From NCBI RefSeq assembly GCF_009882975.1, contig NZ_WTUX01000011.1, positions 237,362 through 301,361 on the forward strand: a stretch of DNA of 64,000 nucleotides, in the 5' to 3' direction. The notes beneath the pieces are model-generated. The model ran no database searches. It saw only the letters and a list, made by a program, of their open reading frames with translations, and was not told the origin of the DNA. The position numbers and the translations under genes were made by a program. This stretch comes from Maritimibacter harenae (GTDB taxonomy: Bacteria > Pseudomonadota > Alphaproteobacteria > Rhodobacterales > Rhodobacteraceae). Shown in pieces: positions 3,397-6,983 of this stretch. The first letter of the stretch is position 1; each line of letters opens with the position of its first letter.

Positions 3397-3744
3397 TCAC
3401 CCGGCGTCTCCGAGCTCCGCCTGCACCTTCTTGGGAAGCTTCGCGCGGATCGTGTCGTAGGACACCGTCAGCCGGTGGCGGAGCTCGTCCGCGTTCGTCG
3501 GTCCGAAGGGCAGCAGCACCCAGGAGCGATGAAAATACGCCGCCTTCTGCGCGACGCCCGCATCCTTGAGCATGTCGGCGGTCTCCACGTCGGGGCATTT
3601 CACCGCGACGCCTGCGCCCATCGCGCCGATGCAGGCGAACATCTTGCCGCCCACCTTCCACGCGTCATGTCCGCCGCCCCACGGGTCCGAGACTTCGGCT
3701 CCGGGAAACGTCCGGCAGATTTCGTTGACCAATGCGCGCGACAT
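3397..3744 (-). CDS. MmcQ/YjbR-family protein
   Basis: This 115-residue protein matches the MmcQ/YjbR fold (CyaY-like, wing-type DNA-binding fold): it opens with an EICRTFPGAEVSDPWGGGHD-like segment, has the VGGKMFACIGAMG strand, and ends with the HRSWVLLPFG plus Y-D-xI-R-A-KLPKK helix seen across the family. Family proteins are small and cytoplasmic, and their biochemical role is not settled although DNA binding is often predicted. It is divergent from the cysS leader, with about 50 bp between their start codons, so the two share a promoter region. Confidence 0.8.
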   Translation of the reverse strand: MSRALVNEICRTFPGAEVSDPWGGGHDAWKVGGKMFACIGAMGAGVAVKCPDVETADMLKDAGVAQKAAYFHRSWVLLPFGPTNADELRHRLTVSYDTIRAKLPKKVQAELGDAG

Positions 3745-3762
3745 GGGCGAAGGCTATCACGC

Positions 3763-3791
3763 TTGGCAGAGCCGGCGAAGCCTGCTATCAC
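3763..3791 (+). promoter_or_regulatory. Sigma70-type promoter for the cysS-cimA unit
   Basis: TTGGCA (3763-3768) and TATCAC (3786-3791) are separated by 17 bp. The next ATG is at 3798, seven bases after the -10, so transcription probably begins at or next to the start codon of the leader ORF and the message would be leaderless. The sequence GCTATCACGC occurs twice here (3753-3762 and 3784-3793), 31 bp apart. Identified by eye. Confidence 0.5.
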
Positions 3792-3797
3792 GCCCCC

Positions 3798-3842
3798 ATG
3801 AACGGAAACCGCAACATCATCATTGGCTGCATTACCCGCTGA
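3798..3842 (+). CDS. Putative leader peptide (Ile/Cys) upstream of cysS-cimA
   Basis: A 14-codon ORF encodes MNGNRNIIIGCITR. Four of 14 residues are isoleucine, three of them consecutive, and one is cysteine. The downstream unit encodes cysteinyl-tRNA synthetase and citramalate synthase, the first enzyme of the pyruvate route to isoleucine. Two of its four isoleucine codons are ATT, which is uncommon in this GC-rich DNA. Its ATG sits seven bases after a promoter-like -10, so it could be translated from a leaderless transcript. A strong inverted repeat follows its stop. This is the layout of an amino-acid-responsive leader, but expression is not shown and the ORF is very short. Confidence 0.45.
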   Translation: MNGNRNIIIGCITR

Positions 3843-3850
3843 CATCGTCA

Positions 3851-3900
3851 GGCGGACCGTTCTTCTATTCCTCATCCAGATCGAAGCTGCTAGGTCCGCC
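3851..3900 (+). promoter_or_regulatory. Stem-loop between leader ORF and cysS
   Basis: GGCGGACC (3851-3858) and GGTCCGCC (3893-3900) form a perfect 8-bp stem beginning 8 nt after the leader stop codon and ending 26 nt before the cysS ATG. CTTC and GAAG inside the loop could extend the structure. No T-run follows, so if it regulates, it would do so through Rho or through access to the cysS ribosome site rather than as a simple intrinsic terminator. Confidence 0.45.
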
Positions 3901-3926
3901 GCGGGAGAATTGCGCGCGAGGACGAA

Positions 3927-5288
3927 ATGGTCGAGATCAAGCTGCACAACACGGCGACGCGGAAGAAAGAGGTCTTCATCCCGGAGGTCCCGGACAACGT
4001 GCGCATGTATGTCTGCGGGCCCACCGTCTATGACCGCGCCCACCTGGGCAACGCGCGCCCGGTCGTGGTCTTCGACGTGCTTTACCGGCTCCTGCGCCAT
4101 GTCTACGGCCCCGACCACGTCACCTATGTGCGCAACTTCACCGACGTCGATGACAAGATCATCAAGCGCGCCGAGGAGAGCGGGACGCCGATCGACCGGA
4201 TCACGGCGGAAACGACGCAGTGGTATCTCGACGACATGGGCGCGCTCGGGGCGCTCGAGCCCACCGCGATGCCTCGCGCGACCCAGCACATCGACGACAT
4301 GATCCGCATGATCGAGGGGCTGATCGAGAGCGGTCACGCCTATGCCGCCGAGGGCCACGTGCTCTTCGCCGTGGAGAGCTACGAGGAGTACGGCAAGCTT
4401 TCGGGCCGGTCGGTGGACGACATGATCGCGGGCGCCCGCGTCGAGGTGGCGCCCTACAAGAAGAACCCGATGGATTTCGTCCTGTGGAAGCCCGCCCAGG
4501 ATGACGAACCGGGCTGGGACAGCCCCTGGGGCCGCGGGCGCCCGGGCTGGCATATCGAGTGCTCGGCGATGTCCTACGAGCTGCTGGGCGAGAGCTTCGA
4601 CATCCACGGCGGCGGCAATGACCTGATGTTCCCGCACCACGAAAACGAGATCGCCCAGTCGAAATGCGCCCACCCCGGCGGCGGCTTCGCGCGCTACTGG
4701 CTGCACAACGAGATGCTGCAGGTCGAGGGCAAGAAGATGTCCAAGAGCCTGGGCAACTTCTTCACCGTGCATGATCTGCTGGAGCAGGGCGTTCCGGGCG
4801 AGGTGATCCGCTTCGTGTTCCTGGGCACGCATTATCGCAAGCCGATGGACTGGACCCAGAAGAAGCGGGAAGAGGCGGAGGCGACGCTCAGGAAGTGGTA
4901 TGCGCAGGCCGCCCAGGGAACGGGACACGGCACGCCCCATGACGGGGTGGTCAACGCGTTGGCCGACGATCTGAATACCGCCGGGGCGATCGCCGAACTC
5001 CACCAGTTGTCGCTGGCCGACGATGTGGTCGGGCTTCGGCACGCCCTGCAGTTCCTTGGGCTCATGGGCGACGATGTGCCCGACTGGGCGCAGGTGGACC
5101 TGTCGGGGCTGGCGGGCAAGCTTTTCACGCTTCGGGAAGAGGCGAAGGCTTCGAAGGACTTCTCGCAGGTCGATGAGATGAAGGCGGCCCTGGTGGCGGC
5201 GGGCGTGGAAGTGCGCATGTCGAAGGACAACGTGGACCTCGTGCCCGGCAAGGGCTTCGATGCCGGCAAGCTGGAGGGGCTGCAATGA
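3927..5288 (+). CDS. cysS: Cysteinyl-tRNA synthetase
   Basis: This 453-residue class I aminoacyl-tRNA synthetase charges tRNA-Cys with cysteine. The HIGH-type motif is HLGNAR at residues 39-44 and KMSKS is at residues 270-274. The catalytic zinc ligands typical of CysRS are visible as Cys30, Cys212 and His237/His238. The C-terminal 150 residues form the helical DALR-type tRNA-binding part. Length is normal for the family. The ATG at 3927 follows GAGGACGAA. It is the first large gene of the unit with cimA; its stop codon overlaps the start of a tiny ORF (ATGA at 5285). Confidence 0.97.
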
Positions 5289-5368
5289 CACGTGCAACCG
5301 AAACGGTGAGCGCGACGGTCGCGGGAGCGCGCGAGACAACATCCACGAACGGGGGCCGCCATGACTGA
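5285..5368 (+). CDS. 27-codon bridging ORF between cysS and cimA (doubtful)
   Basis: An ATG overlapping the cysS stop (ATGA) opens a 27-residue reading frame that closes at a TGA inside the first codons of cimA (the cimA ATG is at 5361). Seven of the 27 residues are threonine. It would allow ribosomes to pass from cysS to cimA without leaving the message, since cimA has only a weak ribosome site. It may equally be chance; there is no family match that I can recognise. Confidence 0.2.
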
Positions 5369-6983
5369 GCGCCTTTACCTCTTCGACACCACGCTGCGCG
5401 ACGGGCAGCAGACGCAGGGCGTGCAGTTCTCGACGCCCGAGAAGATGGCCATTGCCAAGTCGCTCGACGAACTCGGCATCGACTACATCGAGGGCGGCTG
5501 GCCGGGCGCGAACCCGACCGACAGCGAATTCTTCCTGGCCCGCCCCGAAACCCGCGCGACCTTCACCGCCTTCGGGATGACCAAGCGCGCCGGGCGCTCG
5601 GCCGAGAACGACGACGTGCTCGCGCAGGTCTTCCAGGCGCAGACCCCCGCGGTCTGTCTCGTGGGCAAGACGCATGACTTCCACGTCACCACGGCGCTCG
5701 GCATCACGCTCGACGAGAACGTCGAGAACATCTCGGCCTCGATCGCCTACCTGGTGCGCGAGGGGCGCGAGGCGCTGTTCGATGCCGAGCATTTCTTCGA
5801 CGGCTACAAGGCCAACCCCGACTACGCGTTGGCCTGCGTGAAAGCCGCCTACGACGCGGGCGTGCGCTGGGTGGTGCTGTGCGACACGAACGGCGGCACG
5901 CTGCCGCGCGAGGTCGAAGAGATCACGCGCGCGGTCGTCGCCTCCGGCATCCCCGGCGATCACGTCGGCATCCACACCCACAACGACACCGGCAACGCCG
6001 TGGCCAATTCGCTTGCCGCCGTCGACGCGGGCGCGCGCCAGATTCAGGGCACGCTCAACGGGCTGGGCGAACGCTGTGGCAACGCCAACCTCATCACGCT
6101 CATCCCGACGCTGATGCTGAAGGAACCCTACCGCAGCGAGTACGAGATCGGCGTGCCGCAGGAGGCGCTCGTCACGCTCACCCGCGTGTCGCGCCAGCTC
6201 GACGACATCCTCAACCGCGTGCCGGTCAAGAGCGCGCCCTACGTCGGTGGCTCTGCCTTCGTCCACAAGGCGGGGCTCCACGCGAGCGCGATCCTCAAGG
6301 ACCCGACCACCTACGAACACATCGACCCGGCCATCGTGGGCAACGAACGGGTCGTGCCGATGTCGAACCAGGCCGGGCAATCGAACCTGCGCGCCCGGCT
6401 CGAGGCGGTGGGCATCTCGCTCGAAAAGGGCGACCCCCGGCTGGGCGAGATCCTCGACGCCGTGAAGGCGCGCGAGGACGAGGGCTATGCCTACGACAGC
6501 GCCGAGGCGTCGTTCGAGCTGGTGGCGCGGCGCATCCTGGGCACGTTGCCCAACTACTTCGACGTGGAGCGTTACCGCGTCATCTCCGAGCGCCGGCGCA
6601 ACGCCAAGGGGCGCATCGTCGTCGAATCCGAGGCGATGGTGGCCGTGCGCTACCCCGACGGGGCGGAGCGCACCTCGTTCTTCAAGAACGAGCATGCCCA
6701 TGAAATGTCCGACGACGGCCCCGTCAACGCGCTGTGGCAGGCGTTGCAGGCCGATCTCGGCCCCTACCAGGGGGCGATCGAGACCGTGAAGCTCACAGAC
6801 TTCAAGGTCCGTATCACCCAGGGCGGGACCGAGGCCGTGACCCGCGTGATCATCGATTTCACCGACGGCGTGCAACAATGGTCCACCGTGGGCGTTTCCG
6901 CCAACATAGTGGATGCGAGCTTCGAGGCGCTGCTCGACGCGGTGGTCTGGAAGCTGTTGGACGACAAGACGAGTGTGGCATGA
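5361..6983 (+). CDS. cimA: Citramalate synthase
   Basis: The 540-residue product belongs to the DRE-TIM metallolyase family. Residues 8-17 (FDTTLRDGQQ) start the catalytic barrel with its conserved Arg and metal-binding Asp, and GIHTHNDTGNAVANSL supplies the metal-binding His residues. After the barrel comes a C-terminal LeuA-type regulatory dimer domain (about residues 400-530). The length and the C-terminal domain place it with CimA/citramalate synthases, which condense pyruvate and acetyl-CoA to (R)-citramalate, opening a threonine-independent route to isoleucine. A 2-isopropylmalate or homocitrate activity is less likely. It shares a unit with cysS and overlaps the next gene by ATGA. Confidence 0.9.
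   Translation: MTERLYLFDTTLRDGQQTQGVQFSTPEKMAIAKSLDELGIDYIEGGWPGANPTDSEFFLARPETRATFTAFGMTKRAGRSAENDDVLAQVFQAQTPAVCLVGKTHDFHVTTALGITLDENVENISASIAYLVREGREALFDAEHFFDGYKANPDYALACVKAAYDAGVRWVVLCDTNGGTLPREVEEITRAVVASGIPGDHVGIHTHNDTGNAVANSLAAVDAGARQIQGTLNGLGERCGNANLITLIPTLMLKEPYRSEYEIGVPQEALVTLTRVSRQLDDILNRVPVKSAPYVGGSAFVHKAGLHASAILKDPTTYEHIDPAIVGNERVVPMSNQAGQSNLRARLEAVGISLEKGDPRLGEILDAVKAREDEGYAYDSAEASFELVARRILGTLPNYFDVERYRVISERRRNAKGRIVVESEAMVAVRYPDGAERTSFFKNEHAHEMSDDGPVNALWQALQADLGPYQGAIETVKLTDFKVRITQGGTEAVTRVIIDFTDGVQQWSTVGVSANIVDASFEALLDAVVWKLLDDKTSVA

Follow-up and report, generated by a model that had tools for sequence, protein, structure and literature searches.

Organization of the cysS-cimA locus

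The window, that is the complete stretch of 64,000 nucleotides of Maritimibacter harenae DNA that was analysed, harbors a gene for cysteinyl-tRNA synthetase (cysS), followed on the same strand by a gene for citramalate synthase (cimA). The translated products score above the NCBIfam cut-offs of the respective families (CysS: TIGR00435, 436 bits against a cut-off of 340; CimA: TIGR00977, 592 bits against 450), in agreement with the identities given in an earlier note made from the sequence alone. That note had furthermore described a promoter-like TTGGCA-N17-TATCAC sequence, a 14-codon open reading frame (ORF) with isoleucine and cysteine codons and a perfect 8-bp stem just before cysS. All three are present, the arms of the stem, GGCGGACC (3851-3858) and GGTCCGCC (3893-3900), being exact reverse complements, and the observation of an Ile/Cys leader ORF with its promoter and stem before cysS is confirmed. 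The features of the locus are as follows.

3763-3791, + strand: predicted promoter of the leader ORF; TTGGCA (3763-3768), 17-nt spacer, TGC-TATCAC (-10 at 3786-3791); from the sequence and a fixed distance to the leader ATG in 175 loci
3798-3842, + strand: leader ORF MNGNRNIIIGCITR; 14 codons, ATG at 3798, TGA at 3840-3842; probably leaderless; position and Ile/Cys content conserved
3836-3855, + strand: predicted stem P1; 3836-3843 (last codons, stop codon and one base) with 3847-3850 and 3852-3855; from the window fold, pairing in 59 sequences and arm swaps
3859-3870, + strand: U-rich tract after P1, GTTCTTCTATTC; from the T content downstream of GCGGG in 167 loci, this segment having been located with a T filter
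3851-3900, + strand: predicted stem P2 (the stem of the earlier note); 3851-3858 with 3893-3900; excludes P1; from pairing, covariation and arm swaps
3868-3903, + strand: probable internal promoter; TTCCTC (3868-3873), TGCTAG (3888-3893), start near 3903; from a fixed-spacing pair across loci
3917-3923, + strand: Shine-Dalgarno-like sequence of cysS, CGAGGAC; from the sequence, SD-like in 160/175 cysS genes
3927-5288, + strand: cysS, cysteinyl-tRNA synthetase; ATG at 3927; TIGR00435
5361-6983, + strand: cimA, citramalate synthase; TIGR00977

Comparison of 20 loci against Rfam 15 (riboswitches, T-boxes and other families) gave no match at the gathering score, while positions 3600-4050 of the window gave sub-threshold matches only (E-values of 4.2 and 6.5), and a riboswitch or T-box identity was rejected for want of an Rfam match. 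A direct repeat, GCTATCACGC, can be observed at 3753-3762 and 3784-3793; its second copy contains the -10 of the leader, while the first lies between the leader -35 and the start of a divergent ORF (3397-3744, minus strand). Antisense to cysS and cimA runs an open frame of 1,092 codons (3600-6878, minus strand), of a type common in GC-rich genes and with no sign of being a real gene.

Conservation and composition of the leader ORF

A search for CysS gave matches in 59 of 61 relatives and in 389 of 395 genomes of the family, about 150 places being listed for the latter. The set of 150 loci used here combines 30 from the relatives with 120 of those listed for the family, and hence leans to closer relatives. 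A short Ile/Cys-rich ORF, such as MNGQRNIIICCIIPC, MKSICIICCIIPC or MNGTCIIICCIITH, is found at the same place before cysS in 135/150 loci, with its stop codon mostly 80-120 nt upstream of cysS, while fifteen loci lacking a candidate or with one judged unconvincing (e.g. MTRLICICC in L050) were excluded from the leader set. The residues of the 135 leaders, start excluded, are 29.8% Ile and 21.5% Cys, as against 5.8% and 2.8% in nucleotide shuffles of the same leaders and 4.2% and 1.0% in the cysS genes, figures which lean upward because the leaders were picked with a filter of at least three Ile and Cys in sum. A stricter rule was applied identically to real and shuffled sequence, namely an upstream ORF (uORF) with at least two Ile, at least two Cys and at least five of both within the 220 nt upstream of cysS. 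This rule is satisfied at 121/149 loci, compared with a mean of 0.72 (maximum 4) of 149 in 50 dinucleotide shuffles, at one locus on the reverse complement and at none of 144 loci upstream of cimA.

The alignment of related cysS-cimA loci that the earlier note had called for shows the ORF, the promoter and the stem to be conserved in the family, with varying third codon positions (Ile ATT/ATC, Cys TGC/TGT). Conservation of the peptide itself, also named there as a check, holds for amino-acid content and position and fails for the exact peptide: the codons of III-G-C-I-T were found in the window alone among 394 genomes. The conserved feature is therefore the amino-acid content together with the position, and the exact search was discarded as a conservation measure, being too strict and wrongly suggestive of none.

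A covariance model built on 59 sequences matched 325/395 family genomes at an E-value of at most 0.01 and misses some diverged leaders (e.g. L213, L230 and L240). Second, weak matches at 14 places in 13 family genomes (23-29 bits), with neither cysS nor cimA nearby, were taken as chance rather than as further leaders. Forty loci with high-scoring model matches were added to the 135, giving 175 leaders. At codons -9 to -3 relative to the stop codon these contain 50.0% Ile, 30.6% Cys, 5.8% Thr, approximately 2% Leu and 0.7% Phe, while Val, Tyr and Lys are at 0, and the near or complete lack of the last four residues therefore points to selection on the amino acid and not on A/T-rich codons. The Ile codons in this stretch comprise 371 ATT, 240 ATC and 2 ATA, and the Cys codons 343 TGC and 32 TGT. 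Every one of the 135 leaders contains Ile, the commonest residue, and 125/135 carry it at -3. This residue (3831-3833 in the window) is encoded by ATT in 121/125 leaders, while cysS genes favour ATC (1930 vs 491), a bias that may reflect an additional constraint on RNA or decoding.

Predicted transcription start and probable nested promoter

When the 175 leaders are aligned on their ATG, 85% have T at -35 and 85% have C at -1, with a TG near -15/-14, a T or A at -12 and an A at -11. A TTG starting 35 or 36 nt before the leader ATG has 104 matches among them. Shine-Dalgarno-like sequences precede the leader in 15/175 cases and cysS in 160/175. A promoter at leaderless distance and the absence of a Shine-Dalgarno sequence suggest that the leader ORF is probably leaderless, with transcription starting at the A of its AUG, as judged from the promoter position.

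In 152 leader loci and 36 loci classed as leader-free, the stretch from P1 to cysS contains a TTTCC / TTGCTAAG-like pair spaced approximately as in the leader promoter. The loci were sorted partly by eye, and a few of the leader-free ones may be false anchors. Among the loci with this pair, the P2 arm GCCCGC is found in 131/152 leader loci as against 3/36 leader-free loci; as the anchor was picked by its match to TTGCTAAG, information comes solely from the -35 part and from the dissociation from GCCCGC. The pair probably constitutes a second cysS promoter nested inside the attenuator. It is retained in loci that have lost the leader, e.g. L014, L049 and L098.

Two predicted, overlapping RNA stems

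In P1, the last codons and stop codon of the leader are paired with GUCA/UCA plus GCGGG, while in P2 the same GCGGGC is paired with GCCCGC approximately 45 nt further on. Since RNAalifold gave almost no structure on the gappy 135-sequence alignment, pairing was tested by arm swaps and on named helices. Across 59 sequences, the five core pairs of P1 are formed in 91.9% (at most 51.2% when slid), and P2 is formed in 90.5% (at most 45.9%). The covariation score of P1 was reached by 14/500 shuffles and its number of pair types by 266/500, and its support is therefore modest; P2 shows 25 double changes vs 11.3, with its covariation score reached by 0/500 shuffles. Arm swaps were made on the 129/135 leaders with a located segment 2 (at least five T in the next 17 bases), which was missing in six leaders and, in the masking set described below, in 8/175. 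The mean pairing energy of a locus's own arms is -10.08 kcal/mol for P1 and -17.54 kcal/mol for P2, compared with -9.59 and -16.56 kcal/mol for arms swapped between loci, and none of 300 swaps reached the observed P1 or P2 mean. Window folds containing P2 were no more stable than shuffles (z of -0.5 and -0.35). The pairing counts and arm swaps support P1 and P2 as two predicted, mutually exclusive stems overlapping the control codons. An extra hairpin has apparently been inserted in the P1 loop, as seen by eye, in L030, L078, L084, L089, L097 and L103.

The fraction of T at +4 to +15 after GCGGG is 0.30-0.90 in 167 loci, a value partly due to the T filter in the location rule, while after segment 3 it is at most 0.25 (147 loci). 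A downstream partner for segment 3 is unsupported (own -7.96, swapped -7.94). P2, with neither a U-rich tract after it nor a downstream partner, was rejected as an intrinsic terminator, and the same two results therefore make P1 the better candidate terminator. The hairpin P1 and its U-rich tract occur across the family, while consensus scans of positions 3700-3960 of the window reported neither a terminator nor a promoter. The 8-bp stem of the earlier note is thus conserved and supported as the competitor P2, but lacks U-rich sequence after it, and P1 fits better as the OFF structure.

Placement of the proposed control codons

In a masking model of 167 leaders with a ribosome footprint of 12 nt from the A-site codon, P1 forms with a modelled probability of 0.77 on ribosome-free RNA. 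This falls to 0.00-0.02 when the A site is at the stop codon or at codons -1 to -4, is 0.43 at -5 and reaches 0.85-0.89 at -6 to -11. Codons -5 to -1 include Ile in 175/175 leaders, Cys in 173/175 and both in 173/175, whereas shuffling of the I/C labels among their own positions places both there in 153.6 leaders on average (sd 3.9, maximum 167; 2000 shuffles). The two amino acids are therefore interleaved where a waiting ribosome would block P1, and at -9 to -6 they are under-represented together (99 of 175 leaders vs 124 in the label shuffle). Ile is frequent at codons -6 to -9 too, positions at which P1 stays free in the model; a severe isoleucine shortage would therefore hold the ribosome too far back, which the model does not explain.

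Association with cimA

The cimA gene lies downstream in 170/175 leader loci, the other five being contig ends. CysS matches were obtained in 64 of the 70 model-negative family genomes, and in 13/64 the cimA ortholog is absent or apart from cysS, counting G201 with its 1.8-kb gap. The difference between 167 linked and 0 unlinked leader loci and 51/13 in the model-negative genomes (Fisher test, 2e-8, excluding the five contig ends and three leader loci found in model-negative genomes) is overstated in significance, as are the shuffles, because the genomes are related and non-independent. The same pattern of leader and cimA would result if the whole neighbourhood had been lost. Within the 13 genomes, G136, which is without cimA, has a Cys-rich ORF, MDWICCLCRA (3 Cys, 1 Ile), while G133, a fragmented assembly in which no cimA was found, keeps the Ile/Cys ORF MGTAIRICGICITV. 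Doubtful leader candidates can be observed in G437 and G103, and the rest have no recognisable candidate.

Occurrence outside the Rhodobacteraceae

In 289 genomes of the class the covariance model gave 24 matches, of which five are in the family and 19 are weak matches outside it (20-27 bits). Two of the 19 lie upstream of cysS with Ile/Cys ORFs and a wider search was therefore made, while the remaining 17 were put down to chance. Among 91 non-Rhodobacteraceae loci (the family being set apart by name or CysS identity, and possible duplicate genomes kept), 22 have a uORF with at least two Ile, one Cys and four in sum within nine codons, compared with a mean of 1.3 and a maximum of 4 in 40 shuffles; the 22 include L414, probably a chance match. 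These leaders occur, among others, in Rhizobium, Ensifer, Sinorhizobium, Mesorhizobium, Bradyrhizobium, Devosia, Stappia, Roseibium, Cohaesibacter and a Hyphomonadaceae genome, and in Rhizobium, Ensifer and Sinorhizobium the leader is MKTVICIICRKIIR or differs by one change (L388, L393, L400, L402 and L405).

At least 8/22 outside loci have a TTG 35-36 nt before the ATG, the same geometry as in the family. The stop codon is located in the 5′ arm of a hairpin in 15/17 folded outside loci, mostly as GCUAGC/GCUGGC, while in the remaining two it is only partly in the arm (L335) or in the loop (L320). In the outside loci several bases separate the hairpin from the U-rich stretch, and a terminator-like hairpin lies just before cysS in 2/3 Rhizobiaceae loci scanned; details may therefore differ by lineage. 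The association with cimA is weak outside the family (p=0.052): cimA is within the fetched stretch at 14/22 leader loci, and the Rhizobiaceae Ile/Cys leader loci have no cimA within 3.9 kb. In one other alphaproteobacterial genus, two loci (L309 and L338) carry ORFs before cysS ending in CCCA and WCCA, with no Ile and no cimA nearby, which is suggestive, at two loci only, of cysteine-only versions.

Proposed mechanism and alternatives

As judged from these comparisons, the Ile/Cys leader before cysS is a real, widely conserved element in many alphaproteobacteria, rich in codons of the amino acids tied to cysS and cimA. We infer from sequence comparison and the masking model that it regulates cysS-cimA, and consider it likely that the region is a ribosome-mediated attenuator sensing Ile and Cys, with a leaderless ORF, a P1/P2 switch and a basal promoter; the leader would probably respond to a shortage of either amino acid. 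Transcription would start at the AUG of the leaderless 14-codon ORF, as the promoter position suggests, and the run of Ile/Cys codons would abut P1, with its 5′ arm of last codons and stop codon and the U-rich tract at which termination is predicted. With charged Ile-tRNA and Cys-tRNA the ribosome would finish and depart, P1 would form and transcription would mostly stop. If either were short, the ribosome would wait at one of the last codons and, by the masking model, cover the 5′ arm of P1, allowing RNA polymerase to pass. The freed GCGGGC could then pair with the downstream GCCCGC to form P2, preventing P1 from re-forming, and readthrough would yield CysS and CimA and hence more cysteinyl-tRNA and more isoleucine precursor. 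The probable second promoter inside the element would supply a basal transcript bypassing the switch. We hold the chances to be evenly balanced that this is an old alphaproteobacterial two-input (OR) attenuator, in which a leaderless peptide of about 14 codons, with interleaved Cys and Ile codons, blocks a stop-codon-containing terminator alongside a nested constitutive promoter. The earlier note had read the Ile and Cys codons as matching the products of cysS and cimA; that interpretation is partly supported, the codon content being conserved in the family, while the details of the mechanism are corrected here. Lack of conservation of the ORF among relatives, which the note had named as a refutation, was thus not observed.

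The roles of the stems might be reversed, with P1 as an anti-attenuator and P2, or a hairpin nearer cysS, as the OFF structure, possibly with Rho, so that stalling at the -6 to -9 Ile codons opens the operon. The stronger covariation of P2, the frequent Ile at these codons and the hairpin just before cysS in two of the three Rhizobiaceae loci speak for such an arrangement. We nevertheless find it doubtful, as U-rich sequence follows segment 2 (for which a T filter was used) and not segment 3, segment 3 has no supported downstream partner, and Ile and Cys are concentrated where stalling removes P1 and are jointly under-represented at -9 to -6. An attenuator sensing cysteine only, with the Ile codons as filler or keeping the RNA open, has been proposed in print for the uORFC-8-2 motif (PMC8632094, main text), and cysS alone would justify it. 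The Cys-rich ORF of G136 and the Rhizobiaceae leaders distant from any cimA are consistent with it, and the Ile retained in G133 was counted against the two-amino-acid reading. Filler would, however, include other A/T-rich codons, while codons -9 to -3 show no Val, Tyr or Lys and hardly any Phe; Ile is the commonest residue, present in all 135 leaders, and its -3 position falls within the zone where modelled stalling blocks P1. Leader and cimA furthermore co-occur in the family, and the Cys-only ORFs of L309 and L338 are at loci without cimA nearby. As such, we regard sensing of cysteine alone as unlikely.

That the peptide or a short RNA acts in trans has a precedent in trpL of Sinorhizobium meliloti (excerpts of PMC7298713 and PMC10117765), but seems very improbable here, as the peptide varies in all but its Ile/Cys content, the placement of both amino acids follows the hairpin and only loci upstream of cysS were examined. 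A chance ORF beside real promoters and a real RNA stem would agree with how common short ORFs are and with the lack of this exact peptide in the other genomes searched; the count of 121/149 loci against a shuffle mean of 0.72 refutes this statistically, and we give it practically no credence.

Should the proposed two-amino-acid attenuator be correct, one short peptide would tune two unrelated amino-acid supplies together, and cysteine use would be coupled to isoleucine supply through RNA across a large bacterial group of marine and soil habitats. The pairing of cysS with cimA would thereby gain a regulatory reason.

Comparison with known systems

In the enteric thr and ilv leaders, a single peptide senses two or more amino acids. 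The amino acids in question belong to one linked pathway, whereas here the substrate of a tRNA synthetase and the product of another pathway are combined.

The uORFC-8-2 motif, for which cysteine-dependent attenuation has been proposed from 145 examples 'exclusively' upstream of Rhodobacterales cysS (PMC8632094, main text), resembles the window in cysS, gene order, a short ORF with Cys codons, a predicted hairpin with a U-run and the proposed ribosome-mediated attenuation. Its location agrees with that of the window and family loci, which lie upstream of cysS in Rhodobacterales, with family placement taken from named relatives. The motif is described as a uORF that begins with AUG and has two Cys codons in tandem, as a rule at positions 14 and 15, and as two stems, the first with the Cys codons, followed by the U-run (PMC8632094, main text). 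A possible family counterpart of the latter is P1, with the last codons and stop codon, and its U-rich tract. Cys is found at -5 in 125/175 and at -4 in 118/175 leaders, i.e. approximately codons 9-11, the window has Gly-Cys, and the published numbering does not fit. The rare third stem reported there resembles the apparent extra hairpin described above, as in L030, L089, L097 and L103, while the downstream arm of P2 lies beyond the U-run given as the 3′ end of the motif (PMC8632094, main text). The main text of that paper names cysteine only, without isoleucine or cimA, and calls the motif exclusive to the Rhodobacterales, whereas Ile, cimA and Rhizobiales relatives are involved here. The earlier note had known of no report of a mixed Ile/Cys leader on cysS-cimA. 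Among openly licensed PubMed Central papers this still holds for the isoleucine half of the leader, for which no reporting title was found, but not for cysteine, since the cysteine-only attenuator is in print (PMC8632094, main text), the only one of these papers to use the name uORFC-8-2.

The trpL attenuator of Sinorhizobium meliloti is likewise a leaderless 14-codon attenuator ORF in an alphaproteobacterium (excerpts of PMC10117765), but concerns tryptophan and another operon, with trans functions having been shown (excerpts of PMC10117765 and PMC7298713). The cysteine-rich leaderless uORFs of mycobacteria are similar in being small, in their Cys clusters and as proposed attenuators, and differ in involving cysteine only, other genes and another phylum (excerpts of PMC4633059). 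Beyond cysteine sensing, the present analysis would add the isoleucine half, the link to cimA, the leaderless start, P2, the nested promoter and the Rhizobiales relatives and, if correct, a leader printed as cysteine-only would be re-read.
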